Made by a program: the position numbers and the translations under genes. A model generated the notes under the pieces. That model did no database searches, was not told where the DNA came from, and saw only the letters and a list, made by a program, of their open reading frames with translations. From Streptomyces katrae (GTDB taxonomy: Bacteria > Actinomycetota > Actinomycetes > Streptomycetales > Streptomycetaceae): a stretch of DNA of 64,000 bases. Each line of letters begins with the position of its first letter. The stretch's first letter is position 1. Shown here in pieces: positions 8,268 through 45,457 of this stretch. The stretch spans positions 3,782,001 to 3,846,000 of the forward strand of contig NZ_CP020042.1 in the NCBI RefSeq assembly GCF_002028425.1, read 5' to 3'.

Positions 8268-8508
8268 CTCCAGCCCGCTGCCTCCGGCCCCGCCGGCGTT
8301 CGAGGCGCCCCTCACCCGTTCGGCGGCACCGGCCCCCGGTTTCGCAGCCACCCCCCACCCCCCACCGCCAGCTGCGAAGACTCCCCGCACACCCCCCGAC
8401 ACACCGATGACACCCCGTCAACTCGGGTACGTCACCGACGCGCCGACCCCCCGCACGTGGGCCACGCTCCGAGGAACCGGCCGCCCGAGCCGGCCCAGGA
8501 GGAATGCC

Positions 8509-9111: not shown

Positions 9112-9159
9112 ACCCGGTGCGCGCGGCCGCCGCCCGTCAGCCGAGGGGGGTGTTCCCGT

Positions 9160-9173
9160 CCCCCGGTCGGGGG
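9160..9173 (+). terminator. Short G/C hairpin followed by cttct
   Basis: CCCCC-GGTC-GGGGG stem with a pyrimidine run behind it, 50 bases after the sortase-like gene. Weak but well placed. Confidence 0.4.
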
Positions 9174-9226
9174 CTTCTCGGCGGCGGCCGGGGAGCCGCC
9201 GGGGACGGCGGGGCAGGGAAGACCCC

Positions 9227-9580
9227 ATGAGCGGTGCGCGGTACGCGCGGACGGTGCCGGCGCGGGCCCTGACGGTGGCCTGCGTCGCCCTGCTGTGCCT
9301 GTTCGGCGCCGGCCCGGCGGCAGCCGCCACCGCCGGGGCAGATCCCCGTGCCGCCTCCTCCGCCCCGGCCGACCCCGCCGAGGGGCAGTCGGATCCGGCC
9401 GCGGATCCCGACGGCCGGGCGGACCTACGGACGGTCGTGCGCGGGGCTCCGGCCCCGCGCGGGCTGCCGGGGACGTTTCACGTGAAACACGCGGGCGAGT
9501 CCACCCGTGTGGCCCAGGGCGGACCGGCCGGGGCGGCCGTGTCCCCGCGGACGGTACGGAGTGTGGTCCTGCGCTGCTGA
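9227..9580 (+). CDS. Small secreted protein; contains parS within its reading frame
   Basis: 117 aa, no family recognised. Residues about 1-34 form a Sec signal peptide (positive start, hydrophobic core LTVACVALLCLFG, cleavage after AAAA). The rest is Ala/Pro/Asp-rich and probably disordered, ending in a cysteine. Codons 83-88 (TFHVKH) are encoded by the parS site at 9475-9488, so part of this sequence is dictated by the partition site. RBS GGGCAGGGAAG lies upstream of ATG 9227. Confidence 0.6.
   Translation: MSGARYARTVPARALTVACVALLCLFGAGPAAAATAGADPRAASSAPADPAEGQSDPAADPDGRADLRTVVRGAPAPRGLPGTFHVKHAGESTRVAQGGPAGAAVSPRTVRSVVLRC
9475..9488. other. parS: parS chromosome-partitioning site 1
   Basis: Perfect 14-bp palindrome GTTTCACGTGAAAC, identical to the Streptomyces ParB-binding consensus. 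It lies inside the coding frame of a small secreted protein. parS sites in this genus cluster around oriC. Confidence 0.93.
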
Positions 9581-31366: not shown

Positions 31367-32146
31367 TCAGCGGCCCAGGGTGCGGTCCTTGAGGGCCGGG
31401 AACTGGTCGCGGGTCTCCGCCACCTTCGCCGGGTCGAGGTCCACCGTCAGGACGGTCTCGCCCGGGCCCGCCTCCGCGAGGACCTCGCCCCACGGGTCGA
31501 CCACCAGGCTGTGCCCGGACTGCTCGACGCCCGCGTGGGTGCCGGCCGTCGCGCAGGCCAGGACGTACGCCTGGTCCTCCACCGCCCGGGCCCGGCTGAG
31601 CAGGGTCCAGTGCTCGCGCCGCCGGGCCGGCCAGCCGGCCGAGACGACCATCGTCGTGGCGCCCGCGTCGACGAGCCCCCGGAAGAGCTCCGGGAAGCGC
31701 AGGTCGTAGCAGGTGGCCAGGCCCAGGGTCTGCTCGGGCAGGGTCACGGTGGTCAGGGAGTCCCCGGCGGACATCAGCACCGCCTCGCCCTGGTCGAAGC
31801 CGAACCGGTGGATCTTGCGGTAGGTCGCGGCGAGCTCGCCCGCCGGGGAGAGCACGAGCGCGGTGTTGTAGAGGGAGCCGTCTCCCGCGCGCTCCACGAC
31901 CGAGCCGGCGTGCAGCCAGACCCCGGCGTCGCGGGCGGCCTTGGACATGGCCTCGTACGTCGGCCCGTCCAGCGGCTCGGCCTCCGTCTCGAACTGCTCG
32001 TAGGCGAAGGCGCCCACCGTCCACAGTTCGGGCAGCACGACGAGGTCGGAATCGCCCTGTTCCCGGACGAGTTCGGCGGCCCGGGACCGCCGTGAGGCCA
32101 CCGACTCTCCGTCGGTCACCGCGATTTGGATCAGCGAGGCGCGCAC
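31367..32146 (-). CDS. Carbon-nitrogen hydrolase (nitrilase superfamily; omega-amidase-like)
   Basis: 259 aa with the catalytic triad Glu40 (VVLPELW), Lys111 (TYRKIHRFGFD) and Cys146 (LATCYDLRFPELFR). The surrounding sequence is closest in feel to the omega-amidase/Nit2-like branch, which hydrolyses alpha-ketoglutaramate-type amides; exact substrate is not certain. Cytosolic. GTG start at 32146. It is divergent from a mycothiol-dependent enzyme gene across a 139-base region that contains a terminator-like hairpin. Confidence 0.9.
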   Translation of the reverse strand: MRASLIQIAVTDGESVASRRSRAAELVREQGDSDLVVLPELWTVGAFAYEQFETEAEPLDGPTYEAMSKAARDAGVWLHAGSVVERAGDGSLYNTALVLSPAGELAATYRKIHRFGFDQGEAVLMSAGDSLTTVTLPEQTLGLATCYDLRFPELFRGLVDAGATTMVVSAGWPARRREHWTLLSRARAVEDQAYVLACATAGTHAGVEQSGHSLVVDPWGEVLAEAGPGETVLTVDLDPAKVAETRDQFPALKDRTLGR

Positions 32147-32206
32147 AGTACCACCGTCCTGGCATGTCAGCCGGTCAACTCAAGGCCTACGATCGTCACA
32201 CGAAAG

Positions 32207-32238
32207 CGCTGCCGGGGTGCTCATCGGCAGCGTAGTTT
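32207..32238 (+). terminator. Terminator-like hairpin in the leader of the MDMPI gene
   Basis: Perfect 8-bp stem (CGCTGCCG / CGGCAGCG), 10-base loop, followed by TAGTTTT. It sits between divergent genes, upstream of the MDMPI start, where it cannot end a gene; it may be an attenuator or insulate the two promoters. Confidence 0.55.
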
Positions 32239-32285
32239 TGGGAATAGTCCACAACGCGCCACTGAACAGCCAGCGAGGGGTCCCG

Positions 32286-33113
32286 TTGACCGTCCATCCC
32301 ACTCTTGAGCCCTACGTCGACGCGTGGACACACTCGATCGAGGCGATAACCGAACTGGTCCTCCCCCTGACGGAGGGCCAGTGGAACCTGCCGACGCCGT
32401 GCCCGGGCTGGTCCGTGCGCGATGTCGTCTCGCACATCATCGGCCTGGAGCTGGAACAGCTCGGCGACCCCCGGCCGATCCACACGCTGCCGCGCGACCT
32501 GCGGCACGTGGTGAACGAGTTCACCCGCTACATGGAGGTTCCGGTTGACGTCCGCCGGCACCACACCGCCCTTGAGATGACCTCCGAGCTGGAGTACACC
32601 GTCATCCGGCGCCAGCGCCAGCTCCGCAACGACAAGCGGGACCCGGCCACGACGCTGGTACGAGGCCCCCAGGGCGACCAGATCCCCCTGGAACTCTCGC
32701 TGCGGCTCCGGGCGTTCGACGTGTGGATCCACGAGCAGGACCTGCGGGCGGCGCTGGGCGTTCCGGGCAACTGGGGCACACCGGGGGCGCATGTGGCGCG
32801 GGACATCCTGCTGGCCGGGCTGCCCAAGGTGGTGGCGAAGGGCGCCGGCGCGCCGCCGAACACGGCGGTGGTGCTGGACGTGCACGGCGAGCTGGAGTTC
32901 CTGCGGACGGTCCGGGTGGACGCGACGGGCCGGGCCACCCTCGACTCGACGCCCTCGCTGGGCCCGGCGGTGTCGCTGTCGCTGGACTGGGAGACGTACG
33001 TCCGCCTCGCGGCGGGCCGGGTGCGGCCGCGGACGGTCGCGGACCGGGTGAAGGTGGACGGCGACACGCAGCTGGCGGACGCGATCCTGGCGAACTTCGC
33101 CGTCACGCCGTAG
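32286..33113 (+). CDS. Maleylpyruvate isomerase-family mycothiol-dependent enzyme
   Basis: 275 aa. N-terminal DinB-like MDMPI domain (YVDAWTHSIEAITELVLPLT, TPCPGWSVRDVVSHIIGLELEQL) with metal-binding-type histidines (VSHIIG and later DVWIHEQDLRAAL), and a C-terminal SCP2-like beta domain (about 190-275). Such enzymes use mycothiol, the actinobacterial thiol, for isomerisation or S-transfer reactions. TTG 32286 is the chosen start: GAGGGG precedes it and family similarity starts here; a GTG at 32217 is possible. It overlaps the convergent MFS gene by 11 bases. Confidence 0.88.
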   Translation: MTVHPTLEPYVDAWTHSIEAITELVLPLTEGQWNLPTPCPGWSVRDVVSHIIGLELEQLGDPRPIHTLPRDLRHVVNEFTRYMEVPVDVRRHHTALEMTSELEYTVIRRQRQLRNDKRDPATTLVRGPQGDQIPLELSLRLRAFDVWIHEQDLRAALGVPGNWGTPGAHVARDILLAGLPKVVAKGAGAPPNTAVVLDVHGELEFLRTVRVDATGRATLDSTPSLGPAVSLSLDWETYVRLAAGRVRPRTVADRVKVDGDTQLADAILANFAVTP

Positions 33114-34446
33114 GGGCGGGGGCGGCGGGCGCGGCAGGGCCGGCGGGAGCGCTCACCGAGAGCGGGCGCTCCCGCTCCCGCTCGCGTTCCCGCTCGCGGC
33201 CGAGGGCCTTCGGGCGGAGGCGGAGGATCTGGGTGAGGCCGAGGAGTTCCACGACGAACACCGACGCGAAGGCGATCCGGTAGTCGTCCCCGGTGGCGTC
33301 CAGCAGGACCCCCACCGCCAGCAGGGTGGTCATCGAGGCGAGGAAGCCGCCCATGTTGGTGATCCCGGACGCGGTGCCCTGCCGTTCGGCGGGGTTGGCC
33401 GGGCGGGCGAAGTCGAAGCCGATCATCGAGGCCGGCCCGCAGGTGCCCAGGACCACGCACAGGGTGCCCAGCAGCCACATCGGGGCGCGCTCGTCCGGGT
33501 AGAGCAGGACGGAGGCCCACAGCAGCGCGGTGACGCCGACCGTGCCCAGCGCCAGCGGCAGCCGCGCGGCCGGACGGCGGCCGATGACCTGGCCGTAGAC
33601 CAGCCCCCAGCCCATGTTCGCGGCGACGATCAGGGTGAGCAGCCCGGCGGCGGTCGTCCGCTCCAGGCCCTGCGCCTCGACCAGGAACGGCATGCCCCAC
33701 AGCAGCAGGAAGACCATCGCCGGGAACTGCGTCGTGAAGTGCACCCACAGCCCCAGGCGGGTACCGGGCTCCCGCCAGGAGTCGCGTATCTGGCGCCGTA
33801 CGAACCCGCCGCCGCCCGAGGGCGCGGGCGGCAGGGCGTGGCCCTCGGGGTGGTCGCGCAGGAAGAGCGTGAGCGGGACCAGGACGACCAGCCCCGCCAC
33901 CGCGCTGCCGGCGAAGGCGGGCACCCAGCCGGCGCCGTGCAGCACGGGCGCGAGGACGAGGGTGGAGACGAGGTTCCCCGCCATCCCGACCAGCCCGGCC
34001 AGCTGCGCCATGAGCGGCCCGCGGCGGGCGGGGAACCAGCGGGTGCCGAGCCGGAGCACGGAGATGAAGGTCATCGCGTCGCCGCAGCCCAGCAGGGCGC
34101 GGGCGGCCAGCGCCATCGCGTAGGTGGGCGAGAGCGCGAAGCCGATCTGCCCGGCGGTGAACAGGACGGCGCCCAGCGTCAGCACCTTCTTGGTGCCGAG
34201 GCGGTCCACCATCAGCCCGACCGGGACCTGCATGCCCGCGTAGACCAGGAGCTGGAGGAGGGAGAACGTCGCCAGGGCCGAGGCGTTGACGTGGAAGCGG
34301 TCGGCGGCCTCCAGCCCGGCCACGCCCAGACTGGTACGGAAGATCACGGCGACGAAGTAGACGGCGACGCCGATCGACCAGACGGCCGCGGCCCGCCGCC
34401 CGCCGGGCGGGTCCTGGACGGCCGCCGGGCCGGCCGGGGTGCTCAT
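33103..34446 (-). CDS. MFS transporter in operon with a GntR regulator
   Basis: 447 aa with twelve predicted helices. The MFS loop motif is visible (GLMVDRLGTKKVLTLGA, between helices 2 and 3), and relatives are anion/organic acid-type symporters. The C-terminal tail has an Arg-Glu repeat (GRERERERERERP) followed by Ala/Pro-rich sequence. The start ATG overlaps the GntR stop (ATGA), so the two are translationally coupled and the regulator likely responds to the transported substrate. Confidence 0.9.
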   Translation of the reverse strand: MSTPAGPAAVQDPPGGRRAAAVWSIGVAVYFVAVIFRTSLGVAGLEAADRFHVNASALATFSLLQLLVYAGMQVPVGLMVDRLGTKKVLTLGAVLFTAGQIGFALSPTYAMALAARALLGCGDAMTFISVLRLGTRWFPARRGPLMAQLAGLVGMAGNLVSTLVLAPVLHGAGWVPAFAGSAVAGLVVLVPLTLFLRDHPEGHALPPAPSGGGGFVRRQIRDSWREPGTRLGLWVHFTTQFPAMVFLLLWGMPFLVEAQGLERTTAAGLLTLIVAANMGWGLVYGQVIGRRPAARLPLALGTVGVTALLWASVLLYPDERAPMWLLGTLCVVLGTCGPASMIGFDFARPANPAERQGTASGITNMGGFLASMTTLLAVGVLLDATGDDYRIAFASVFVVELLGLTQILRLRPKALGRERERERERERPLSVSAPAGPAAPAAPAPTA

Positions 34447-35108
34447 CGGTCCGCCCCCCGCACCAGTGCCTCGACCCGTCCGATGTGCCCGCGCACGGCG
34501 GCCGCGGCGGCCTCCCGGTCACCGGCGCGCAGCGCGTCCAGGATCTCGGCGTGCTCGGCGAGGGTGCGCTCCACCCGGTCGGGGTGCGCGTGCAGCAGGG
34601 CCACGCCCATGCGCAGCTGGCGGTCGCGGAGCTGGTCGTAGAGGCGGGAGAGGATCTGGTTCCCGGCGCCCCGGACGATCTCGGCGTGGAAGCAGCGGTC
34701 GGCCGCCATCATCGCGGCGAGGTCGCCCTGGGCCGCGTACCGCCGGAGCTCCTCCAGCAGCTCCGTGAGCCGGTCCAGCAGCGCGGGCGGGGCGGGCACG
34801 GCCCTGCGTACGGTGAACTCCTCCACCAGCAGCCGGGTTTCCACCACGTCGGCGATCTCCTGCGCGGAGACCGGCAGCACCAGGGCGCCCTTCTTCGGGT
34901 ACAGCTTCAGCAGCCCCTCGGTCTCCAGCCGCAGCAGCGCCTCGCGCACGGGGGTGCGGGAGACGCCGACGGCCAGGGCGAGCTCGCCCTCGGTGAGGAG
35001 CACCCCGCCCTCGTAACGGCGGTCGAGCACGCCCTGCTTGACGTGCCGGTAGACGCGTTCGGCGGCGGTGGGGGCCTGGGTGGCGGGCGGCGTGGCGGCG
35101 GCTGGCAT
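34443..35108 (-). CDS. GntR-family transcriptional regulator (FCD domain)
   Basis: 221 aa. Winged HTH (about 15-80: ERVYRHVKQGVLDRRYEGG, LTEGELALAVGVSRTPVREALLRLETEGLL) and an all-helical FCD ligand domain (about 95-215: AMMAADRCFHAEIVRGAGN, HAEILDALRAGDREAAAAAV) with the metal-binding Asp/His positions. Controls the downstream transporter in all likelihood. A direct repeat TGTATC-N5-TGTATC (reverse strand, about 35115-35136) just before the start may be its operator or core promoter. Confidence 0.92.
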   Translation of the reverse strand: MPAAATPPATQAPTAAERVYRHVKQGVLDRRYEGGVLLTEGELALAVGVSRTPVREALLRLETEGLLKLYPKKGALVLPVSAQEIADVVETRLLVEEFTVRRAVPAPPALLDRLTELLEELRRYAAQGDLAAMMAADRCFHAEIVRGAGNQILSRLYDQLRDRQLRMGVALLHAHPDRVERTLAEHAEILDALRAGDREAAAAAVRGHIGRVEALVRGADR

Positions 35109-35114
35109 GCGCAC

Positions 35115-35140
35115 AGGATAGATACATGAGGGATACACAC
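35115..35140 (-). promoter_or_regulatory. TGTATC direct repeat upstream of the GntR gene
   Basis: On the reverse strand two TGTATC hexamers, 5 bases apart, lie 7 to 30 bases before the start codon. A/T-rich compared with surroundings. Candidate autoregulatory site; unproven. Confidence 0.4.
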
Positions 35141-35300
35141 GCCCTCCCCGTCCAGGATGTGGACCCCGCCCGTGCCGGGGAGCGCACGCCCCAGAGCCCG
35201 TACTGAGGAGCGCGCGCTCCCGACGCTCCGCCGAAGGATGTAGCGCGGCTTCGTCCACTGGCAGGACGTACCGGGCCCGACCCGCCGCGAGGCTGGGGAG

Positions 35301-36476
35301 ATGGCCCACACCACCCTCGTCGCCCCCGGGGTGACCGCGACCCGGCTCCCGCTCCTCGACGTCCTGCGCGGCGCCGCCATCCTCGGCACGCTCATGACCA
35401 ACGTCTGGATCTTCGCCTCCCCCGGCTCCGAATGGAGCGTGCTCCGGGGGAGCATGCACCTGCCCGACCCGCTCGCCGACCCGTCCGCCACGACCGTCGC
35501 CGAAGCCGCCTTCCGCTTCCTCGCCGACGGGAAGTTCCTCTCGCTGCTGACGGTGCTGTTCGGGGTGGGCCTGGCCATCCAGTACGACTCCGCCGCCCGC
35601 CGGGGCGAGCGGTGGCCCGGCCGCTACCCGCGGCGGGCCGCGTTCCTCTTCCTGGAGGGGACCGTCCACTTCGTCCTCGTCTTCGCCTGGGACGTGCTGA
35701 TGGGATACGCCGTCACCGCCCTGCTCGTCGCCTGGCTGCTGGCCCGCTCCGAGCGGGTGCGGCGGGTGGTGATGTGGGGCGCGGGCGGGCTGCACCTGAC
35801 CCTGATCGGCCTGGTGACGCTGGGCGAGGTCCTCACCCCGGACTCCGCGCCCGAGGGCCCCGACCCGCGGGCCGTCCGGCTGTACGCGCACGGCGGCTGG
35901 GCCGAGCAGATCGGCTTCCGGCTCGACCACGCCCTCGCGCTGCGCATCGAGCCCGTGTTCTCCTTCGGGCTGCTCGTCTTCCTCTTCCTCCTCGGTGTCC
36001 GCCTCCACCGCGCCGGCGCCTTCGCCCCGACCGACGCCGGGCGCCGGATCCGGGTCCGGATGGCCGCCTGGGGGCTCGGCCTCGGCCTGCCGCTGGGCGC
36101 CGCCGCCGCGCTCGGCGGCCACGACTTCTTCGTCCTCGGCCGCTACGGCATCGCCCCGCTGATCGCCCTCGGGTACGCCGGGCTGATCGGCTGGGCCCTG
36201 GACCGCGGCGCCGTCCCCGCGGCCCGCGCGCTCGGCTCCATCGGCCGCACCGCCCTGTCCTGCTACGTCGGCCAGAACCTGCTGTGCGTCCTGCTCTGCT
36301 ACGGGATCGGCCTCGGGCTCGCCGACCGGTTCGCCGGGTCCGGCCCCTGGTGGGTGATGGGCCTGTGGGCGGCGGTGAGCCTGACCCTGGTCGCCGCGTC
36401 CCGGCTCTGGCTGCGCCGCTTCGAGCGGGGCCCGCTGGAGGCCGTGCAGCACTGGGCGCTCAGGCCCCGCCGGTGA
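35301..36476 (+). CDS. DUF418-domain membrane protein (YeiB-like)
   Basis: 391 aa. Starts RLPLLDVLRGAAILGTLMTNVW, the family signature, and has eight to ten hydrophobic helices. The C-terminal DUF418 region (about 240-385) contains GSIGRTALSCYVGQNLLCVLLCYGIG and ends RRFERGPLEAVQHW. Acyltransferase-like topology; biochemical role unknown. The 3' end overlaps the convergent inhibitor gene by 17 bases. Confidence 0.9.
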   Translation: MAHTTLVAPGVTATRLPLLDVLRGAAILGTLMTNVWIFASPGSEWSVLRGSMHLPDPLADPSATTVAEAAFRFLADGKFLSLLTVLFGVGLAIQYDSAARRGERWPGRYPRRAAFLFLEGTVHFVLVFAWDVLMGYAVTALLVAWLLARSERVRRVVMWGAGGLHLTLIGLVTLGEVLTPDSAPEGPDPRAVRLYAHGGWAEQIGFRLDHALALRIEPVFSFGLLVFLFLLGVRLHRAGAFAPTDAGRRIRVRMAAWGLGLGLPLGAAAALGGHDFFVLGRYGIAPLIALGYAGLIGWALDRGAVPAARALGSIGRTALSCYVGQNLLCVLLCYGIGLGLADRFAGSGPWWVMGLWAAVSLTLVAASRLWLRRFERGPLEAVQHWALRPRR

Positions 36477-36795
36477 CCACCTCCACGTCCAGCACGAACT
36501 CGTCGTACGGCGCCTCCTGCGGGTAGGGCGGCCGGACCTGCGCGAACCGGATCCGGGCCCGCCCGCCCGGGCTCCGGCCGCGGACCTCGTACGTCCGCTC
36601 CACCGCCTCTCCGGGCAGGGCCCGCGCCGCCCGCCCGGGCCCGGTCTCGCGCACGGAGACGGCGTCGGCGTGCCCGGAGACCTGCCAGGTCCACACGTAC
36701 CCGCGCGCCCCGCGGCCGGTCAGCCTCAGCTCGTACGTATCTCCGGCGCCGAGGACGATGCTGCGCACCTCCACCCGTGGGACCTCCTGGTTCAC
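36460..36795 (-). CDS. Chagasin-type (I42) cysteine-peptidase inhibitor
   Basis: 111 aa, the normal size for the family. Chagasins are small immunoglobulin-like folds that block papain-family peptidases with three loops. Two loops are clear: GYVW at residues 32-35 (canonical G-[YF]-x-W) and RPPYP at 88-92 (canonical RPW/F). The first loop (canonical NPTTG) is degenerate (LTGRGA). No signal peptide. The GTG start overlaps the peptidase stop (GTGA), so peptidase and inhibitor are made from one message with coupled translation. Inference: it restrains the upstream peptidase inside the producing cell. Confidence 0.82.
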   Translation of the reverse strand: MNQEVPRVEVRSIVLGAGDTYELRLTGRGARGYVWTWQVSGHADAVSVRETGPGRAARALPGEAVERTYEVRGRSPGGRARIRFAQVRPPYPQEAPYDEFVLDVEVVTGGA

Positions 36796-38675
36796 GCCGG
36801 GCCGATGACGGCCCCCTCGTGCCATCCCGCGCCGTCGCGCCAGTAGTGCTGGAGCATGCGGTCCGTGCGCAGGACGACGACTTCCAGGTTGAACCCGAAG
36901 CTGCCCTGGAGCATCCCGGTGACGGCCAGCGCGTCGTGGCCGAACACGGCGCCGCGCGCCCAGGGCGCCCCGGCGGCGTTGCCCCGCCACCAGTGCTCGA
37001 TCCGCCCGCCGGCGACGGCCACGCACAGTTCGTAGTTCCCGGCGGTGTCCTCGTCCGCCGCCCCGTACTGGCCCTCGATCAGGCAGGGCGCGGAGGTGAC
37101 CCCGCTGCCGAAGACCTCTCCGGGCCGCCAGACGAAGCCGTTGGGGTCGTCGCGCCACCACAGTTGCATCCGGCCGTCGGTGCGGGCGGCGACCAGGTCG
37201 AGGGTGCGGGCACGGGTCTGGACGAGGGCGGGGCCGTAGTGGGCGATGCCGGAGCCGAAGCGGCCGCCGTCGTTCCAGGTCCAGGGGGCGCCGTTGATCC
37301 GCCACCAGTGGTTGAGGCGGCCGTCGGCGGTGCGGACGACCACCTCGAAGTTGCCCGGCTTGCCGTAGTCGCTCTGGATGAAGGCGGGGGTCGAGCCGAT
37401 GGCGGCGTCCCCGGGCCCGAAGGCGCCGCCGTCGCGCCAGACGCCGACGGCCTGCTCGTAGTACCAGTGGCGGAGCCGGCCGCCGGTGGTGACGTGCAGG
37501 GTCTCCATGTTCCGGTTGTAGGTGGTGCCGGTGAAGGCGGGCTGCCCGGAGGCGTCGCCGGCGAAGGTCTCGGCGCGGGCCCAGGCGTAGGGGGCTTCGC
37601 CCTCGCGCCACCAGTGCCGCAGGCGGCCGCCGCCGGCGGTCGCGGCCAGCTCGAAGTTGCGGTGGGCCCGGCCGTTGCCGCTCTCGTAGACGCTGCCCGC
37701 GTGCAGGCGGCGTTTGCTCCAGGGGTCGATGTTGGTGTCGCGCAGGCCGCACTTGGCCCAGTAGTCGATGTTGACCTCGCCGTACGCGATCCGGCCGTAG
37801 CCGCCGACGTGGTAGCCGGTGCCCCAGGAGTTCTTGAACAGCCAGCAGCCGGCCGCGTCGTCGTAGCCGACGACGAGCACGCAGTGGCCGCCGGCGAGCC
37901 GGCCGCCGGTGCGGTGGTAGACCCCGGCGCCGAGCGCGAAGAAGTCGTCGTACACGTCGAAGCAGGCGGTCAGCGGCCCGACCGTGTCCAGCCAGACCTT
38001 CTGCTGCTCGACGTCGCCGAGGCGTACGTAGTCGGTGATCCGGACGGTCCGTCCCGAACGGTCCCAGCTGGGCGTGTACTCGGCCCGCCAGGCGTCGCGC
38101 CGCTCGGCGGGCAGGCCCGGCGGCGGGGTGCCGTACGGCCAGCAGCCGGGGTCGGCGAGACCCCCGTTGTCCTTGATCCAGTCCAGGGCGGTCTCGGGGG
38201 TGCCGCCCTGCCCGCAGGCGCACTTCAACCCGTCGTGCACGTCGCCCTCGGAGCGCGCCGCCCACACGTCGTGCTCGATCCGGGCCATCGACTCGACCAG
38301 CCCGGCCGCCCCGAACGCCCAGCAGGACGCGCACGGGTTCTGGTCCTTGACCTTCGTCAGCCAGGGCCATCCCCACCGGTTCCGCCAGTCCACGGCCACG
38401 GGCCGCCCGGGCCCCGCGACCGTCCCCGGCAGCAGCCCGTGCGCGGCCCTGCGCCGCGTCAGGTGCGGGTTGCCGCTCTCCCTCCCCACGAGCGCCCGCA
38501 GGTCGACCGCCCCCGCCTCCGCGGCGGGCGTCAGCTCCCTTCCCGGCTCCAGGCCGAGCGCGGGCCTCGGCACGGGGTCCTCGTCGGCCAGGTGCTCGCT
38601 GACCGACCACCGCGCCCCCAGCGCCGCGAGCCGCGCCCGCAGTTCCCCCACCGTATGGACAGACTCCTCCGGCAT
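36792..38675 (-). CDS. Papain-family (C1A) cysteine peptidase fused to a lectin-like repeat propeller
   Basis: 627 aa. A propeptide-like N-terminal region (about 1-90) has no signal peptide. The C1A domain (about 92-305) has oxyanion Gln112, catalytic Cys118 (DQNPCASCWAFGAAGLVES), His254 (GGHCVLVVGYDD) and Asn272 (FKNSWGTGYHVGGYGRI), all intact. The C-terminal half (about 315-627) has six repeats of the GRLxHWWR type (GRLRHWWREGEAPYAW, GRLNHWWRINGAPWTW, GRIEHWWRGNAAGAPW), resembling PLL-like beta-propeller lectins. The enzyme is therefore probably targeted to a glycan or surface. How it leaves the cell is not evident. The next gene encodes its likely inhibitor. Confidence 0.9.
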   Translation of the reverse strand: MPEESVHTVGELRARLAALGARWSVSEHLADEDPVPRPALGLEPGRELTPAAEAGAVDLRALVGRESGNPHLTRRRAAHGLLPGTVAGPGRPVAVDWRNRWGWPWLTKVKDQNPCASCWAFGAAGLVESMARIEHDVWAARSEGDVHDGLKCACGQGGTPETALDWIKDNGGLADPGCWPYGTPPPGLPAERRDAWRAEYTPSWDRSGRTVRITDYVRLGDVEQQKVWLDTVGPLTACFDVYDDFFALGAGVYHRTGGRLAGGHCVLVVGYDDAAGCWLFKNSWGTGYHVGGYGRIAYGEVNIDYWAKCGLRDTNIDPWSKRRLHAGSVYESGNGRAHRNFELAATAGGGRLRHWWREGEAPYAWARAETFAGDASGQPAFTGTTYNRNMETLHVTTGGRLRHWYYEQAVGVWRDGGAFGPGDAAIGSTPAFIQSDYGKPGNFEVVVRTADGRLNHWWRINGAPWTWNDGGRFGSGIAHYGPALVQTRARTLDLVAARTDGRMQLWWRDDPNGFVWRPGEVFGSGVTSAPCLIEGQYGAADEDTAGNYELCVAVAGGRIEHWWRGNAAGAPWARGAVFGHDALAVTGMLQGSFGFNLEVVVLRTDRMLQHYWRDGAGWHEGAVIGPA

Positions 38676-38787
38676 CCCGGCCCCCCAGCCACTCGTGTGT
38701 GAGCCCCGGGAGCGTCCCCCCGCCGCCGGACCCCGTCAAGGGGGGCCGCGCGGTCGCGCGGACGCACGGGGGTCGTACGGTTCCGGG

Positions 38788-39828
38788 ATGGACGCACGAC
38801 GCACGCAGCGCCAGCTCTCGATGATCGGGGAGGTCCGCGACCTCGGCCCCGAGGTCTGGCTGCGGGGCGGCTGGGCGATGGACTTCTGGCTCGGCGAGGT
38901 CACGCGGGAGCACGAGGACGTCGACTGGTTCGCGTGGGCCGAGGACGCTCAGCGGCTGGGGGACCTCCTCGTGGCCCGCGGGTACGAGGTCCTGAGCGCG
39001 GACGACCAGCAGCTGGACGTCGTACGCGACGGGGAGGAGCACGGCTTCGCGTTCGTCACCCGGCGCCGCAGCGACGGCCGGGTCCTGGTCGCGGGCGGCC
39101 CCTGGGCGGGCACGCCCTGGCCGGAGGGGCTGCTGGACGGGGTGGAGCCGGGTCGGCTGGGCGGCCTGGAGTGCCCGGTGGCGTCACCGGAGGCGCAGAT
39201 CGAGATCAAGCGGATGATGCCGGTGTGGGTGCCGGAGCGCCCCCGCCGTCGGAAGGACGCGGTGGACACGGCCCGGCTGGAGGCCGCCCTGGCGGCTCTG
39301 CACGCGACGGACGACACCCTCGTCCACGAGGGCAGCGCGTTCGTCAACTTCCGTACGTACGCCTCCGGGGAGGACTGGGGACACGGCTTCCGCTGGCTCG
39401 ACACCAAGCACTTCCGCCTCCCGGCCGCCCCGCTCCCGGACACGGGCCTCCTGGCCGCCCTCATCGCCCACGAGCAGTTCCGGGACGACTACGCGGGCGG
39501 CGGCGTCCTGCCGCTGGGCCGACGGCACGGCCCGTTCTGGCGGCGCCTGATCACCCCGGCCGCCTACGCGCCGGTCCCCGCCGCCGACGCGGCGCACCTC
39601 CTGCGCACCTGGGCGGACCAGTACGGGCCGGTCCCGGAAGAGTTGGAGGCGGACCTGCGGCGGGAGGCGTTCGCCCGCCTGACCCCGGCCACCACGATCC
39701 ACCACCTGACGGGGGTCGGGGAGGACGACTTCCACGACTGGGGCGGCGTACACGGCGAGTTCCACGAACTGGTCGTCATCGACCGCGCCGCGGGCCACCT
39801 GACCCTCCTGGTGGCGGCCGACGACTGA
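38788..39828 (+). CDS. Nucleotidyltransferase (ANT(2'')-like) fused to a second, unnamed domain
   Basis: 346 aa. Residues about 1-160 resemble aminoglycoside 2''-nucleotidyltransferase-type proteins: VWLRGGWAMDFWLGEVTREHEDVDWFAW contains the GGWA...D.D pattern (split here at 20: VWLRGGWAMDFWLG / EVTREHEDVDWFAW). Residues about 165-346 form another module (FVNFRTYASGEDWGHGFRWL, LIAHEQFRDDYAGGGVLP, FHDWGGVHGEFHELVVIDR) that I do not recognise as a named family. Antibiotic modification cannot be concluded; many such proteins have other or unknown substrates. ATG 38788 starts just before the conserved domain. Confidence 0.75.
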   Translation: MDARRTQRQLSMIGEVRDLGPEVWLRGGWAMDFWLGEVTREHEDVDWFAWAEDAQRLGDLLVARGYEVLSADDQQLDVVRDGEEHGFAFVTRRRSDGRVLVAGGPWAGTPWPEGLLDGVEPGRLGGLECPVASPEAQIEIKRMMPVWVPERPRRRKDAVDTARLEAALAALHATDDTLVHEGSAFVNFRTYASGEDWGHGFRWLDTKHFRLPAAPLPDTGLLAALIAHEQFRDDYAGGGVLPLGRRHGPFWRRLITPAAYAPVPAADAAHLLRTWADQYGPVPEELEADLRREAFARLTPATTIHHLTGVGEDDFHDWGGVHGEFHELVVIDRAAGHLTLLVAADD

Positions 39829-39900
39829 CCACCCGGCCCGCACCCGCCCCGGCACCCGCACCCGCACCCGGGACCGAACCGGCAGCCCCCGTCCCCGTCC

Positions 39901-41145
39901 CTACGAGGACATGGCCTGCCCCCCGATCCCCGCCGCACCCGCCAGTTGCCCCTCCCACCAGCCCGCCACCTCGGCGGCACTCATCCGCGCCCACACCGGC
40001 GTCTCCTCCACCTGCGCCCGCCCCAGCCGCCGCGCCAGCGCGACCAGCTCCCGCCCGGCCCCGCCCCGCGCCGCCTGGTAGCCGGCGACCAGCTCCTCCC
40101 AGGACCCCGCCCGCGCCCAGGCCGCGCCGAAGGCGGTGGCGTCCTGGAGGGCTTTCGCGGCCCCGCTCGTGTTGTGCGGCCGCACCACGCTCGCCGCGTC
40201 GCCGGCCAGCAGCAGCCGCCCCGCCGCGGCGGGCTCCGTCACCAGGTCGTAGATGGGCTGCACGAACGTGTCCCCCGGCGCCGTCAGCGCCAGCGCCCGC
40301 CCCCAGTACTCCGGGAACTCCCGCTCCAGCAAGGCCCGCAGGTGAGCGGCGAGTTCCTGCCCCAGCGCCCCCGGCGGAAAGCTGGTCGGGTCGTCGAAGC
40401 GCAGCCCCGCGCCCGGCGGCGGCGCCGCGTACAGCACCCAGTTCACCCGCAGGCCCTCCGGCCCGGGGATCCGGTAGATCACGCAACTGCCCCCGGGGAA
40501 GCACACGGTGGTCACCGCCGCGGGGTACGACTCGGCTCCCCCCAGCCCCTCCAGCAGCGCGGCGTCGAAGTTCCCCCGCCAGCACACGTACCCGGCGTAG
40601 TGCGGCGTCGCCCCCGGGCTCACCGCCTCCCGCACCACCGACCGGTACCCGTCGGCCCCGACGACGAGGTCGAACCGCTCCACGCCCCCGCCCCCGAACC
40701 GCACGCCGACCCGGCCCCTCCCGCGGCCCACGCCCCCGGCCCCGTCCCCGTCCCCGTCCACTCCCGCAACGGCCACGCCCTGCCGGTAGTCCACCGCCCC
40801 TGGGACCGCCTCCCGCAGCCCCCGCCACAGCAGCCCCCAGTGGTACGAGTGGAACGGGAACGGCTGCTCCCAGATGAGCCGCCCCCCGGCCCCCGCCCCG
40901 GCGTCCCGCACCACCCACCGCCGCCGCTCCAGCCGGTGCGCGGGGATCCCCGGCGGCAGCGCCCCGGCGGCCACCAGTTCCGCGGCCCGGTCGTCGTGCA
41001 CGCACAGCCCGACCCCCCGGTCCGCGAGCCGCCCCCGGGTCCGTTCCAGTACGACGACCTCCCCGGCTCCCGCCCGCACCGCGGCCGACGCGAACGCGCA
41101 CCCGGCGATGCTCCCCCCGACCACCGCGACCGTCCCACCACGCAT
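39901..41145 (-). CDS. FAD-dependent monooxygenase
   Basis: 414 aa group A flavoprotein hydroxylase. N-terminal dinucleotide fold (TVAVVGGSIAGCAFASAAVRAG), the DG motif (LVVGADGYRSVVREAV) and the GD motif (GRLLLAGDAASVVRPHNTSGA). Uses NAD(P)H and O2 to hydroxylate an aromatic or similar substrate, unknown here. A Gly/Asp/Arg-rich insert (about 128-148, DGDGDGAGGVGRGRGRVG) lies in the middle. No pathway genes adjacent. Confidence 0.9.
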   Translation of the reverse strand: MRGGTVAVVGGSIAGCAFASAAVRAGAGEVVVLERTRGRLADRGVGLCVHDDRAAELVAAGALPPGIPAHRLERRRWVVRDAGAGAGGRLIWEQPFPFHSYHWGLLWRGLREAVPGAVDYRQGVAVAGVDGDGDGAGGVGRGRGRVGVRFGGGGVERFDLVVGADGYRSVVREAVSPGATPHYAGYVCWRGNFDAALLEGLGGAESYPAAVTTVCFPGGSCVIYRIPGPEGLRVNWVLYAAPPPGAGLRFDDPTSFPPGALGQELAAHLRALLEREFPEYWGRALALTAPGDTFVQPIYDLVTEPAAAGRLLLAGDAASVVRPHNTSGAAKALQDATAFGAAWARAGSWEELVAGYQAARGGAGRELVALARRLGRAQVEETPVWARMSAAEVAGWWEGQLAGAAGIGGQAMSS

Positions 41146-41321
41146 GACGCCCTCCGCCCGCCGCCCAGTTGTCCGGCCGGCCAGCCTACTGACGCGGAGG
41201 ACCGTGCCCCGGGCGACAGAACGGATCCGGCCACCGCCGGCCCGTGTCCCCGGCCGGGGCGCCGACCCGCCGCGGCGCGCGTAGCGTGGGGAGGGGCGGG
41301 GAGGTCAAGGAGGCGAGGACC

Positions 41322-41633
41322 ATGGCCGGACAGGTGCTGAGCGAGGTCAGCGGGGTCGTCGCGGCCGGGCGCGAGGCCGACCTCGTGGCCGCCTACCGCG
41401 AGCTCGTGAGCCATCCCCTGCCCGACGGGCTGATCCGCTCGGAGCTGCTGCGCGGCCAGGACGGCGTCTGGCGCATCCACACGCTGTGGCGGGACCGGGC
41501 CGCCCTGGAGGCCGTACGGAACGTTCCCGGCGACGCCCCGGCCCCCCGCCTCTTCCGCGAGGTGGGCGCCGAGCCCGTCCTGGCGGTGTTCGAGATCGCG
41601 GTCCACCTCACCGCCCAGGTGGGCCCGGTCTGA
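41322..41633 (+). CDS. Small protein with antibiotic-biosynthesis-monooxygenase (ABM)-like fold
   Basis: 103 aa. Predicted ferredoxin-like alpha-beta protein: GREADLVAAYRELVSHPLPDG, RSELLRGQDGVWRIHTLWRD, ALEAVRNVPGDAPAPRLFREVG, PVLAVFEIAVHL, typical spacing of dimeric ABM proteins. Oxygenase activity not established. RBS AAGGAGG lies 7 bases before ATG. Confidence 0.65.
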   Translation: MAGQVLSEVSGVVAAGREADLVAAYRELVSHPLPDGLIRSELLRGQDGVWRIHTLWRDRAALEAVRNVPGDAPAPRLFREVGAEPVLAVFEIAVHLTAQVGPV

Positions 41634-41676
41634 CGCGCCGGATCCGGCGCCGCCCGTGCCGCCGTAGGGTCGGGGC

Positions 41677-42342
41677 ATGAGCGGACCCGGTGAGCTGGAC
41701 GAAGACGACGAGGCGCTCGCGGCGCGGTGCGCGGAGATGACCGTCGAACAGCGAGGTCACACGGCCCTGCTGGCGCTGTGGCGGCTGCGCGCACCGCTGC
41801 TGGTGCTCGGGCTCGATCCCGGCTGGGGGATCCACCGCTCGGCGGTGGAGGCCGCCTTCCGGGGGATGCTCCTCCCCGTGCACGACGAGCCGCTGCCGGA
41901 TCCGGGCCCGCTCTTCACGAGCCCCCCGGAGGCAGAGCCGGAGGGCGTCGTCGCGGAGGTCCAGCTGGAGGTCCTGGCCGAGCTCCACGCGTGGACGACC
42001 GCCCGGGAGCCGGGCGCCGAGGAGGCCGAGCGGGTCATCCGGCTGGCCCGCGACCTGTCCCGCTCGCTCGACCGCTCCTGCGAGGACTCCCTGTGGGACC
42101 ACCCGGCCCGGCACGCCCACGCCCGGTACCTCGCGACCGTGGCCGGCGGCGGCACCGCCGTGGGCTACCACGAAGCCCGCAACCTCCGCGTCGAGGCCGC
42201 CTGCCAGGACCTCGTGGCGGCGCTGCCGCCCGGCGCGGGGCTGCCCGGCACCGCCGCCGGCCGGGAGGCGCTCGCGCTCTGTGAGGCGTTCAGCGCGGAG
42301 CTCGTCTCGACCCTGGCCTGGCGCGAAAACCTGGGGTACTGA
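41677..42342 (+). CDS. Hypothetical helical protein
   Basis: 221 aa, soluble, Glu/Ala/Leu-rich, mostly helical. No family recognised. Conserved-looking stretches: MTVEQRGHTALLALWRLRAP, VIRLARDLSRSLDRSCEDSL, AVGYHEARNLRVEAACQDLV. It lies 43 bases after the ABM-like gene and 48 before the MFS gene on the same strand, so it may be part of a loose operon. Confidence 0.6.
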   Translation: MSGPGELDEDDEALAARCAEMTVEQRGHTALLALWRLRAPLLVLGLDPGWGIHRSAVEAAFRGMLLPVHDEPLPDPGPLFTSPPEAEPEGVVAEVQLEVLAELHAWTTAREPGAEEAERVIRLARDLSRSLDRSCEDSLWDHPARHAHARYLATVAGGGTAVGYHEARNLRVEAACQDLVAALPPGAGLPGTAAGREALALCEAFSAELVSTLAWRENLGY

Positions 42343-42390
42343 CTCCCCCCGGCCCGTAGGGTGCTCATCGCACCGAGCCCGAGGGAGATC

Positions 42391-43617
42391 ATGAAGAGCA
42401 CCGCCGAGCTGTCGGAGGACACCCGGACGCCCTGGAGGACGGCCGCCTTCCGGCGGTTCGTCTCGGCGAACCTCATCTCCGCCGCCGGGTCCGCCATGGC
42501 CCCCCTCGCCCTGGCCTACTCCGTGATCGAGCAGGGCGGAGGAGCGGGCTCCCTCGGCCTGGTCCTCGCCACGAACACCGTGCCGACGATCGTGTTCCTC
42601 CTGCTGGGCGGCGTCTTCGCCGACCGGCTGTCCCGCAGCCGGATCCTCTTCCTCGGCAACCTCCTGGCCGCCGCCGCACAGGGCGTGCTCGCCCTGACCG
42701 TGGCCACGGGACACGCGACGACGCTCTCCATAGCCGCCTGCGGCCTGATCTCGGGCACGGCGGCCTCGTTCATCGTTCCGGCCATGCAGGGCGCCGTCGC
42801 CCAGATCGTCCCCGAGGAGCACCTGCAGCAGGCCAACGCGCTGCTCCGGCTCCCGGGCAACGCCGTGAAGGTGGTGGGGCCGGTCGTGGGCGGCGTCGTC
42901 GTCGCCGCGAGCGGCGCCGCCTGGGCCCTGGCCTGGGACGCCCTCACCTTCGCCATCGCCGCCGTCCTGCTCCTCAGCCTCTCCCTGGAGACCCCGCCCA
43001 CCCCGGCCAGGGGTGTCCTGGCCGACCTCCGCGCGGGCTGGGACGGCTTCTGGTCCCGTACCTGGCTGTGGACGTACACGGCCGCGGGGGCGGTCCTCGT
43101 CGCGGCCTGGCTGGCCGGCTTCCAGCTCCTCGGCCCCCTGGTCGCCGCCGGGGAGTACGCCGGGGCGCGCGACTGGGGCCTGGTCCAGGCCGCGTTCTCG
43201 TGCGGCCTGCTGGCCGGAACCCTGGTCTGCCTGCGCTGGAAGCCGTACCGCCTCCTCACGGTCGCGGTCGTCACCTCCGGCGCCCTCGCCCTCCCCCTCG
43301 CCGCGCTGGCCCTCGCCCTGCCGCTGCCGCTCGTGCTGGCGGCCGCCCTCCTCGCCGGGATCGGCCTCGACGTGGCGATCGTCGCCTGGAACACCGCGTT
43401 CCAGCAGCACGTCCCGCAGCCGGAACAGGGCCGCATGAGCGCCTTCAACGGAGTCGGCGAACGCCTGGCCATCCCCCTCGGCTACCTGATCACGGCCCTG
43501 GCGGCCGAGCTCTGGACCACCCGCACGGCCCTCCTGGCCTGCGCCGCCCTGATCGCCGCGGCGGCCGCCCTCAACCTCTGCGTCCCGGCGGTCCACCGGA
43601 TCAACCGCCGCTCCTAG
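42391..43617 (+). CDS. MFS transporter (MdfA/EntS-like export group)
   Basis: 408 aa with about twelve helices. The family hallmark between helices 2 and 3 is GVFADRLSRSRILFLGN, and GRMSAFNGVGERLAIPLGYL is near the C-terminal half, as in the EntS-like permeases often found in Streptomyces. Substrate unknown. ATG 42391 has GAGGGAG 4 bases upstream; ATG/GTG forms from 42361 are possible but less supported. Confidence 0.88.
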   Translation: MKSTAELSEDTRTPWRTAAFRRFVSANLISAAGSAMAPLALAYSVIEQGGGAGSLGLVLATNTVPTIVFLLLGGVFADRLSRSRILFLGNLLAAAAQGVLALTVATGHATTLSIAACGLISGTAASFIVPAMQGAVAQIVPEEHLQQANALLRLPGNAVKVVGPVVGGVVVAASGAAWALAWDALTFAIAAVLLLSLSLETPPTPARGVLADLRAGWDGFWSRTWLWTYTAAGAVLVAAWLAGFQLLGPLVAAGEYAGARDWGLVQAAFSCGLLAGTLVCLRWKPYRLLTVAVVTSGALALPLAALALALPLPLVLAAALLAGIGLDVAIVAWNTAFQQHVPQPEQGRMSAFNGVGERLAIPLGYLITALAAELWTTRTALLACAALIAAAAALNLCVPAVHRINRRS

Positions 43618-43646
43618 CCCTCCGGCTCCGTCGATAGGCTCCCGGG

Positions 43647-44189
43647 ATGCATGACACCGCACTGCTGGTCATCGACATGCAGGATGCCCTGCTGAACGAC
43701 GCCCATGACGTCGAGGCCTGCCTGCTCAAGGTCGGCCGCCTTGCCGAGCAGGCTCGCTCCGCCGGCGCAGCCGTGGTCTACGTGCGCCAACGCCTCGATG
43801 ACGTGCCCGCCGACCTGGCCGATGTCCATCCAGCGGTGGCGCCCCGGCCCGGCGATGTGGTCCTGGACAAGGACAGCGCGGACTCCTTCCTCGGCACCGG
43901 GCTCGACGAGTTGCTCCACGAGCGGGCAGTGCGTCGGGTGATCGTCACCGGCTTCGCCACCGAGTACTGCGTCGACTCCACCAGTCGCGCCGCGCTCTCC
44001 CGTGGCTATGACCTCGTGATGGTCTCGGACGGACACACCACGCCGGAGCGTCCGCCCGGTGCCGCGCTGACGGCCGCCCAGGTGATCGCGCATCACAACG
44101 CGACCTTCTCGGCCATCCAGTACGCCGGGCGTTCCATCACCGTGACACCGGCGGCCGAGATCCGCTTCGCCGCCACGCTGACGGCTTAG
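43647..44189 (+). CDS. Isochorismatase-family cysteine hydrolase
   Basis: 180 aa. Catalytic triad Asp10 (LLVIDMQ), Lys75 (VVLDKDSADSF) and Cys108 (FATEYCVDST), with the usual cis-peptide region (VIVTGFATEYCVD). The family hydrolyses isochorismate, nicotinamide or related amides; with this Cys triad an amidase is likeliest. Codon usage is a little less biased than in the neighbours. Substrate unknown. Confidence 0.9.
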   Translation: MHDTALLVIDMQDALLNDAHDVEACLLKVGRLAEQARSAGAAVVYVRQRLDDVPADLADVHPAVAPRPGDVVLDKDSADSFLGTGLDELLHERAVRRVIVTGFATEYCVDSTSRAALSRGYDLVMVSDGHTTPERPPGAALTAAQVIAHHNATFSAIQYAGRSITVTPAAEIRFAATLTA

Positions 44190-44251
44190 GCGGCGAGGGC
44201 CTCGCGAGGGGGGCCAGGAGGGCTGGCCGGGCCCCCGTATAGGGTCCCCGT

Positions 44252-45457
44252 GTGGACGAGTGGACGGCGCCGAGCGTGATCGAGCGCGAGCTGTACGGGG
44301 CGAAGGCGCGCGGGGACTGGGGCGCCTACATGGACGCCCTCGCGCGGGCCGAGCTGTTCCTCCCGCAGCCCCGGGCGCAGGTCGACGCCGATCCCGCCGC
44401 GGCCCGCTTCCACCGGGCCGCCGACAACACCCTCGCCGTCTACACCCGCGGCATGCTCCCCGCCCCCGACGCGCACACCGTCTACCTCCGCCAGAGCCTC
44501 GCCTGGTTCGCCAACGCCTGGGACCACCGGGACCCCTCCCACCTCGCCGTGAACCCCGGCAGCCCCGTCGAGGCGTACCTCACGACCACCCCCGCCGACC
44601 TCGCCCGCTGGCGCGCGCACTGGGACGCCGCCCCCTCCTGGGGCCTGGCCCCCGGCGCCGTGCACGCCCTGTACACCGGCGGCCCGCTGCACGGCCCCGT
44701 GGCCCGCGGCCTGGCCGTCGGGGCGCACCTGGCGGTGTCCAACGGCGAGTTCTGGAACGCCCTCGCCTACCACGGCAACGGCTACACCCGCGAGCGCGAG
44801 CGCCTGCGCACCTCGTGGGAGATCGACGACGCCGCCGGCTGGCTGGGCGTGCTCCAGCGCATGCTGAACGCCGATGTCGTCAGCCCCGTCTGGGAGTTCG
44901 CGCTCCGCGTGCGCCGCGTCCTCGCCTCCGACTTCGCCGGGCCGGTCGACGTCGAGCACTGGCGCCACGCCGCCGAGGTCAGCCTGCGCCGCAGCGCCGA
45001 GCAGGCCGCCCAGCCCCGCCTCACCCCCGACGGGGTGACCGTCGCCGAGCCGCGCCCCGCCGCCGAGGTCGAGGGCGAGATCGCCGGGGTGCGGCGGCTC
45101 ATCGGCCGGATCACCCGCTACGAGCAGCGCTTCCGCGCCGACGGGCTCCTCCCGGCCGGCGGCTGGGTGCGCTCGGTCGAGGGGTGGGACTACGGGCGGG
45201 CCTCGCAGATGGCCCGCTGGGGCGTCGCCTGCCGCTACGGCACCCTCCAGGACGCCGAGCGCGCCGTGCTCCGCGCGGGCGAGAAGGCACGGGGCGCGTA
45301 CCGGTCGTGGACGGACTTCTCCGCCGGGTACGCGCTCGCCCGCTGCCTGCACTTCGACGAGGAGGAGTTCGGGAGCTGGTACGAGTCCTCCCTCGCCACC
45401 CACCTGACGCTGACCACCGACCCCGCCAGCCCCTTCCTCAACATCCCGTGGGAATGA
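44252..45457 (+). CDS. DUF1266-domain protein with SseB-like N-terminus
   Basis: 401 aa. The N-terminus (ELYGAKARGDWGAYMDALAR, AELFLPQPRAQVD) resembles SseB-like folds. The C-terminal DUF1266 (about 210-395) shows VRSVEGWDYGRASQMARWGV, CRYGTLQDAERAVLRAGEKA and WTDFSAGYALARCLHFDEEE. DUF1266 proteins are linked to polymorphic toxin or secretion neighbourhoods in some bacteria; that is not shown here. GTG start at 44252. Cytosolic. Confidence 0.82.
   Translation: MDEWTAPSVIERELYGAKARGDWGAYMDALARAELFLPQPRAQVDADPAAARFHRAADNTLAVYTRGMLPAPDAHTVYLRQSLAWFANAWDHRDPSHLAVNPGSPVEAYLTTTPADLARWRAHWDAAPSWGLAPGAVHALYTGGPLHGPVARGLAVGAHLAVSNGEFWNALAYHGNGYTRERERLRTSWEIDDAAGWLGVLQRMLNADVVSPVWEFALRVRRVLASDFAGPVDVEHWRHAAEVSLRRSAEQAAQPRLTPDGVTVAEPRPAAEVEGEIAGVRRLIGRITRYEQRFRADGLLPAGGWVRSVEGWDYGRASQMARWGVACRYGTLQDAERAVLRAGEKARGAYRSWTDFSAGYALARCLHFDEEEFGSWYESSLATHLTLTTDPASPFLNIPWE

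Follow-up and report, generated by a model that had tools for sequence, protein, structure and literature searches.

Why should a bacterium that encodes a papain-type cysteine peptidase lacking a signal peptide place, directly behind it, the gene of a small inhibitor of the chagasin family? This question is raised by a locus on the reverse strand of a stretch of 64,000 nucleotides from Streptomyces katrae (the window; contig NZ_CP020042.1, positions 3,782,001 to 3,846,000), which lies in a Streptomyces-like host chromosome of an 8.06-Mb genome. The first gene (36792..38675; positions are those of the window, and features lie on the minus strand unless indicated otherwise) encodes a fusion of a C1A peptidase with a PLL-like (DUF346) propeller, 627 amino acids plus stop in length. 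The second gene (36460..36774) encodes an I42, that is, chagasin-family, inhibitor of 104 amino acids plus stop. Members of the chagasin family are inhibitors known to plug C1A active sites; when a peptidase without a leader is encoded next to a small inhibitor of this family, the simplest view is that the cell has to prevent the enzyme from acting freely in its interior. The reading favored here, to which we assign a probability of about 0.7, is a two-gene protease–inhibitor unit in which the leaderless C1A peptidase is held in check by its cognate chagasin.

The peptidase

The catalytic domain (residues 92–312; 37740..38402) scores 115.4 bits against PF00112 in a Pfam scan (cut-off 20.7), which places the protein in the C1A family. 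Its active site is complete, the Gln-Cys-His-Asn set of the family being formed by Gln112, Cys118, His264, and Asn282. Cys118 (codon 38322..38324) lies within the motif DQNPCASCWAF, and the codons of His264 (37884..37886) and Asn282 (37830..37832) were assigned by residue reading. The original prediction, made from the sequence alone, had described an intact C1A peptidase and had the strand, the coordinates, and Cys118 right; the numbers that it gave for the histidine and the asparagine, 254 and 272, are each 10 too low. At E ≤ 0.001, 844 relatives of the peptidase were found among 8000 scored candidates (120 of them, P0001–P0120, listed) and 194 relatives of the inhibitor among 250 scored candidates (again with 120 listed), numbers which put both proteins beyond chance; among the matches listed, relatives of the peptidase reach 89% identity over the full length. 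Comparison with three relatives yields a ratio of nonsynonymous to synonymous substitution rates (dN/dS) of 0.15–0.24 for the peptidase gene of the window, indicating purifying selection, with stronger constraint on the catalytic domain (0.11–0.17) than on the propeller (0.17–0.26).

The propeller-type region (residues 325–627; 36795..37703) comprises six repeats with the cores HWWR, HWYY, HWWR, LWWR, HWWR, and HYWR at residues 354, 403, 456, 505, 561, and 610, a spacing of about 50 residues, and PF03984 (DUF346) is recognized at 27.8 bits (cut-off 22). The likeness of six HWWR-type repeats to PLL lectins, already proposed from the sequence, is thus borne out. The closest match of the repeats among solved structures is 5eo7_A/5eo8_A (E 6e-4 over 66 residues), which we take to be a six-bladed lectin of Aspergillus oryzae. 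NCBIfam beta_propeller_lectin (NF052348) scores 33.5 bits against a cut-off of 200, and the six repeats seen in the sequence fall short of the seven blades of PLL lectins. The PLL lectins of Photorhabdus (DUF346, corresponding to PropLec7A) likewise combine DUF346 repeats with the absence of recognized signal peptides (PMC12203525, PMC7778903), and two of them were found in an extracellular fraction (PMC12203525). Those lectins are stand-alone, seven-bladed proteins, whereas the window protein joins six repeats to a protease. The propeller probably binds glycans or some other ligand and may direct the enzyme to glycans.

The N-terminus of the peptidase, MPEESVHTVGELRARLAALGARW, is devoid of a hydrophobic core, in agreement with the earlier observation that the peptidase has no signal peptide. 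This assignment is based on reading by eye, on the alignment of relatives, and on a hydropathy scan of the N-termini of 28 relatives, in which the N-terminus leads into a conserved segment without any hydrophobic stretch. The highest 11-residue mean hydropathy, 1.44, belongs to L104 (locus handles begin with L), whose automatically assigned start is probably incorrect, like those of L111 and L120. The segment in question (residues 1–91; 38403..38675) follows the pattern LR..L......W....L.D.DP.P...LG in the relatives' alignment, and a rigid form of this motif occurs in 48 of 75 I42-linked loci, in 16 of the 81 remaining loci, and in 24 of 3750 shuffled sequences. Residues 1–91 are probably a pro-segment, which would make the peptidase a zymogen.

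The chagasin-family inhibitor

The inhibitor gene most likely starts at the GTG at 36774. AGGAGG (36783..36788), a probable ribosome-binding site, is located 8 nucleotides 5′ of this codon, and 22 of 23 aligned homologues begin there as MEVR according to their source annotations. The overlap of the two genes by GTGA that had been noted before does exist in the DNA, with GTG at 36795-36793 and TGA at 36794-36792; as a start that is actually used, the overlapping GTG (36793..36795), matched by a longer N-terminus in 1 of the 23 homologues, is unlikely and was set aside in view of the AGGAGG and the homologue starts. With the start at 36774 the genes are 17 bp apart. The inhibitor, too, is without a leader as read from the DNA.

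Family membership of the inhibitor is supported by Pfam and by a wider profile. PF09394 is passed narrowly, with 28.6 bits against a cut-off of 27.2, when the protein is read from the longer start, and both loops named in the original prediction, GYVW and RPPYP, are present. A profile built from the Streptomyces homologues only (A1) gave no chagasin match among solved structures. A wider profile (A4), which comprises 40 proteins of this type with the window I42 as its first row, retrieves 13 solved structures at E ≤ 0.1. Eleven of these are named inhibitors of this kind, comprising chagasin, amoebiasin, inhibitor of cysteine peptidase, PbICP-C, and an amoebiasin-based design (best match 2wgn_B, E 7e-18; 2nqd_A, E 5e-13). 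The remaining matches are a protein with an Ig-like domain (E 2e-12, although no single stretch of it passes on its own) and a tail protein (E 3e-4). Ten distant I42 proteins were scanned as well, and eight exceed the Pfam cut-off, with L096 below it at 25.9 bits and L095 without a match. Measured against the loop motifs NPTTG, GxGG, and RPW (PMC5014320), the window protein has GARGYVW, in which the glycine and the aromatic residue are kept and NPTT is not, no GxGG, and RPPYP in place of RPW. Several I42 partners of propeller-less C1A proteins keep NPTTGY-, GxGG-, and RPW-like motifs, and the partners of propeller-type C1A proteins mainly have G-aromatic-x-W together with an arginine near the third loop, often as RPW.

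Recurrence of the peptidase–inhibitor pair

Absence of the pair from other genomes had been named beforehand as the outcome that would speak against a functional link; the pair recurs. Among 392 Streptomyces genomes drawn evenly and including that of the window, I42 genes (profile A1, E ≤ 1e-5) are present in 24 and C1A genes (E ≤ 1e-15) in 30, and all 24 I42 genes lie beside a C1A gene on the same strand (G518 having a remnant only). Six C1A genomes had no A1 match; in three of them (G523, G540, G591) a broader profile detected a more distant I42 in the vicinity of the C1A gene. G365 and G227 have a propeller-type C1A gene without I42, and G293 has a C1A fragment unmatched by the propeller profile; the counts leave out the C1A genomes G844, G862, G873, and G888, the new ones in a search of 248 relatives of G186 that otherwise yielded mostly genomes covered before. 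A one-genome-per-species scan confirmed at least 265 relatives, the best 80 of which were kept. It yielded loci titled Proteobacteria, Thiotrichales, Nitrosomonadaceae, Bryobacterales, Paracidobacterium, Chlorobium, Chitinophaga, Acidimicrobiales, Tessaracoccus, and others, where single taxon assignments may be wrong because several loci are metagenome bins. Outside Streptomyces, I42 accompanies 9 of 10 complete propeller-type loci. In these nine (L091–L099) the start of the I42 domain falls within a range from 10 bp ahead of the peptidase frame's end to 26 bp beyond it; the tenth, L281, which belongs to another genus of the family, has no I42, and L100, which stops at a contig edge, is not counted among the complete loci.

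When loci are sorted by their score against the peptidase profile, with an I42 match anywhere in the fetched locus taken as near, I42 is found near 41 of 48 propeller-type C1A genes (600 bits or more), at 0 of 1 between 300 and 600 bits (L100), at 32 of 41 between 150 and 300, at 2 of 29 between 100 and 150, and at 0 of 37 below 100, or 2 of 66 for the remoter C1A genes below 150 bits combined. The 32 of 41 include L118 and L191, apparently one record, so that 31 of 40 remain without the double; L167 and L180, identical to L090 and L088, were dropped. Two of seven scanned members of the 150–300-bit group carry DUF346 (L103, L104), the others being without it. It follows from these score classes that association with I42 is a property of one subset of C1A peptidases. 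As to gene order, of 75 I42 matches, 65 lie downstream on the same strand within 1.5 kb and one at 2.2 kb, eight are convergent, and one is divergent (L190, with I42 on the opposite strand, 144 bp before the peptidase frame). In Streptomyces sp. AP-93 (L180/L088), the I42 gene is a remnant 3′ of a peptidase that keeps its cysteine. Given the recurrence of the pair, it is very probable that the inhibitor protects the producing cell from this peptidase, as had been surmised.

Loss of the catalytic cysteine in Streptomyces

Cys118 is replaced by serine or glycine in 11 of the 33 best matches (P0001–P0033) and in three Streptomyces loci (L171, L186, L199), and Trp119 by glycine in P0025 and L187, which are counted as lost in comparisons of the Cys-Trp pair. 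No loss of the cysteine occurs in P0035–P0120 (0 of 86). Among more distant C1A proteins, L155 (serine) and L198 (alanine) also lack it. A quick tree of 63 rows, built without bootstraps and with 15 of 60 inner branches under 80% support, requires at least eight changes of the cysteine state. The reading frames of rows without the Cys-Trp pair stay open, and the median ratio of catalytic to propeller divergence amounts to 1.15 in 16 such rows versus 0.78 in 41 intact ones (Mann-Whitney p 4e-4, the rows not being independent). I42 is present at 32 of 35 loci with an intact Cys-Trp pair versus 1 of 4 that have lost Cys118 or Trp119 (p 0.008 by a Fisher test that disregards kinship). Within one clade, the catalytic cysteine has thus disappeared several times while the propeller stayed in place, so that nature itself has separated the two functions.

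Several findings have to be weighed against a peptidase restrained by its own inhibitor. The link between loss of the active site and loss of I42 comes down to few events; it is suggestive only, since just two independent pairs are supported and a sign test is not significant. L171 has lost its cysteine yet keeps I42, and, conversely, L087, L088, and L196 have an intact cysteine without I42; L281 is without I42 as well. In the window inhibitor, NPTT and GxGG are missing from the inhibitory loops, and the protein evolves faster than the peptidase (dN/dS of 0.55–0.60 versus 0.15–0.24 in the same three comparisons). In 198 genomes of Actinomycetota, PF09394 is found in 39, PF00112 in 19, and both in eight, in some of which they are on different contigs; because adjacency to a C1A gene occurs only in the window's own genome, most actinobacterial I42 proteins recognized by PF09394 seem to do something else. 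Finally, the broad I42 profile favors adjacency because it was grown from same-strand reading frames near C1A genes. Independent checks were provided by the Pfam scan of distant I42 proteins, by the match to solved chagasins, and by 40 further C1A places selected from earlier matches, one of which (L280) has an I42.

Proposed function and alternatives

According to the favored reading, the first gene would give rise to a leaderless C1A peptidase, probably a zymogen by virtue of its short pro-segment, with a propeller for holding glycans or another ligand. The second gene, probably transcribed into the same message, would provide an inhibitor of the chagasin family which, by sitting in the active site, prevents active enzyme from damaging the cell that makes it. 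Lysis or non-classical export, among other events, could part the two proteins, whereupon the enzyme would act on the material held by the propeller.

A different use of the same parts is an intracellular protease triggered by a ligand during conflict or stress: the propeller, or an alternative C-terminal domain, would sense the ligand, inhibition by I42 would be lifted, and proteins of the host cell would be cut. The lack of a leader in the 28 relatives scanned fits this model, as does the company of the pair on two plasmids. On pDAETH-2 of Deinococcus aetherius (L320) the order is C1A, small protein, I42, and caspase-family protein; on a Streptomyces canus plasmid (L319) C1A is followed by I42, with a trypco2 protein about 3.6 kb further on. 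However, a role in anti-phage defense was set aside as the two window proteins have no PADLOC match, no defense gene is present among the neighbors of the window pair scanned (31367-45457), and no relative of the Deinococcus caspase was detected in the other compared loci (tblastn, E ≤ 1e-4). Furthermore, the I42 reading frame of an uncultured archaeon (L122, 9880-10269) has a hydrophobic N-terminal stretch, for which reason this partner may be membrane-bound or exported. On balance we regard a ligand-triggered protease as somewhat unlikely.

A strict toxin–immunity pair, in which the protease–propeller protein is delivered to competitors or predators and I42 serves as the immunity protein, is unlikely. 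In its favor, the gene of an effector recurrently adjoins that of a candidate neutralizer, the peptidase carries a lectin-type domain, the Photorhabdus lectins reach the extracellular fraction in two cases without recognized signal peptides (PMC12203525), and papain-like toxins with a possibly inhibitory immunity protein exist (PMC3482391). Yet no delivery domain is found in the peptidase and no secretion or particle gene among its 11 neighbors (31367-45457). Release by a contractile particle, which had been offered as one way out of the cell, is not supported: a genome search confined to the sheath family (PF04984) returned a single match, 3.75 Mb away, whose 30 bits do not reach the cut-off of 31.4, and the particle was rejected as a candidate. 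Within the Streptomyces clade the pair has the same GntR gene as a neighbor in 37 of 38 loci, a count that includes two duplicates, and DUF418 is near in 23; this synteny argues against a mobile, polymorphic toxin cassette. The repeated replacement of the catalytic cysteine in genes that are otherwise kept tells against a toxin, too. Ten proteins flanking the pair at six loci of other phyla have no Pfam family in common (three have no family at all), which also speaks against a toxin–immunity pair and fits a self-contained unit.

For Streptomyces, the cysteine replacements and the raised divergence ratio of the catalytic domain described above lend themselves to yet another explanation, namely that the propeller is the main function, that the protease is being lost, and that the inhibitor is a leftover where activity persists. 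This is quite unlikely. All catalytic residues are retained in the window copy and in the majority of relatives, none of P0035–P0120 has lost the cysteine, and in the comparison with three relatives selection constrains the catalytic domain of the window protein more strongly than its propeller. A peptide-maturation protease with its regulator, on the model of the C1A protease PoyH and its inhibitor PoyG in polytheonamide biosynthesis (PMC10885120, PMC9505594), is very improbable, as no precursor or tailoring gene was recognized among the 11 neighbors scanned, which led to rejection of a cluster for a ribosomally synthesized and post-translationally modified peptide, and the C1A proteases of such clusters are described as consisting of the protease domain only (PMC10885120), unlike the window fusion.

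The favored protease–inhibitor unit can, with due caution, be generalized. The loci compared here might represent a class of prokaryotic C1A peptidases that is widespread yet undescribed, whose members have no leader and are each paired with a chagasin of their own, and which carry an interchangeable C-terminal targeting or sensing module, either a PLL-like propeller or a small domain that is also found as a separate protein between the two genes; such a class would constitute a protease weapon or response with a built-in safety and would offer an endogenous role for some bacterial chagasins. We put this forward tentatively, as an idea that is more apt to fail than to hold in all its parts. 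The role of bacterial chagasins had not yet been elucidated as of 2016, when one secreted chagasin was described as aimed at host proteases (PMC5014320). A C1A clade with an adjoining chagasin gene in distant bacteria provides a concrete and assayable endogenous target for these proteins.

Relation to known systems

The original prediction had held the combination to be undescribed, which no longer applies to the arrangement as such. PoyG is a chagasin-like protein. Encoded in the same cluster as the C1A protease PoyH, it has been shown to inhibit this enzyme (PMC9505594, PMC10885120), so that a bacterial C1A protease together with an inhibitor gene is already in print. PoyH is a bare protease domain from a peptide-maturation cluster, in contrast to the propeller fusion of the window, which has no such cluster among the neighbors scanned.

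Pairs involving proteases other than C1A have been reported, too. SpeB and staphopain are exported enzymes. The proteases of SpeB/Spi, staphopain/staphostatin, and Bacteroides Bfp/Bfi belong to C10 or C47 and are exported, and their inhibitors are propeptide- or lipocalin-like rather than chagasins. As in the window, a cysteine protease gene stands beside an inhibitor gene: in SpeB/Spi, in staphopain/staphostatin, and in two of the four Bacteroides C10 proteases, the inhibitor gene adjoins the protease gene and is co-transcribed with it, and protection of the producer cell has been mooted (PMC2873492). Pseudomonas Cip1 belongs to I42, the family to which the window inhibitor is assigned by Pfam and by the profile match to solved chagasins. 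Cip1 possesses a signal peptide and inhibits proteases of the host plant, and most Pseudomonas are without C1A (PMC5014320), whereas the window I42 is leaderless and has degenerate loops. Tox-PL1/Imm35 resembles the window pair in that an effector with a papain fold is matched by a specific immunity protein, which may act as an inhibitor (PMC3482391), and differs from it by delivery domains and by another papain clade; chagasin is never mentioned in the accessible text of that paper. A C1A-DUF346 protein with an I42 neighbor was not found described in the open-licence literature, as judged from titles and the beginnings of abstracts, which carry little weight. The type of arrangement is therefore known, and these members and the propeller fusion appear, on that slender basis, not to have been described.

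Genomic neighborhood

The peptidase gene is preceded by a divergent intergenic stretch (38676..38787), read from the DNA as the presumed promoter region, beyond which lies a divergent aminoglycoside-adenylyltransferase-like gene. Downstream, the pair is flanked by a convergent DUF418 gene and a GntR regulator. The 11 neighbors scanned comprise DUF418, two MFS, GntR, adenylyltransferase-like, FAD-binding, ABM, CN-hydrolase, MDMPI, and DUF1266 proteins and one without a family; the DUF1266 protein is encoded at 44252-45457 on the plus strand. One of the proteins flanking the pair in L099, from another phylum, is a radical SAM enzyme. Viral contigs were considered as a source and rejected, as they gave 31 loci whose C1A cores are 23–39% identical with nothing matched beyond query residue 343. 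A plasmid origin was discarded likewise, none of eight plasmid records covering 80% of the query.

Additional domains and gene orders

Many C1A genes have beside them, mostly between C1A and I42, a small gene for a protein of about 130–200 amino acids, whose N-terminus is of low complexity and whose C-terminal part is conserved, often with Y-x-W as its last residues. It was seen at L108, L111, L117, L118, L120, L123, L127, L128, L142, L143, and L154 and also at L105, L113, L119, L189, L191, L280, L286, and L320 (4901-5305). Eight of these proteins, including the dissimilar one of L122, were scanned and match no Pfam family above cut-off, and when the L320 copy was used as a protein query, the sole hit among 53 candidates was the query. 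In L320 and L108, the C1A protein itself ends in sequence similar to the small protein, whose place the propeller may take.

The propeller-like sequence also turns up elsewhere. Two plasmid matches place it under features annotated as galactose-oxidase-like (Burkholderia ambifaria) and as a matrixin metalloprotease (Paenibacillus sonchi), and since it thus occurs under other enzyme annotations, the propeller may be a module shared among enzymes. In L101 (Nocardia crassostreae, 7620-9485), the DUF346 propeller occupies a separate frame after the stop of the C1A reading frame. The C1A domain of the S. canus plasmid locus forms the C-terminal part of a 1023-amino-acid protein, which is followed by an annotated I42 gene. 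In L115 (8837-11309), C1A is followed by a DUF6345 protein and then by a reading frame that joins repeats, pentapeptide-like by eye, to an I42 domain.

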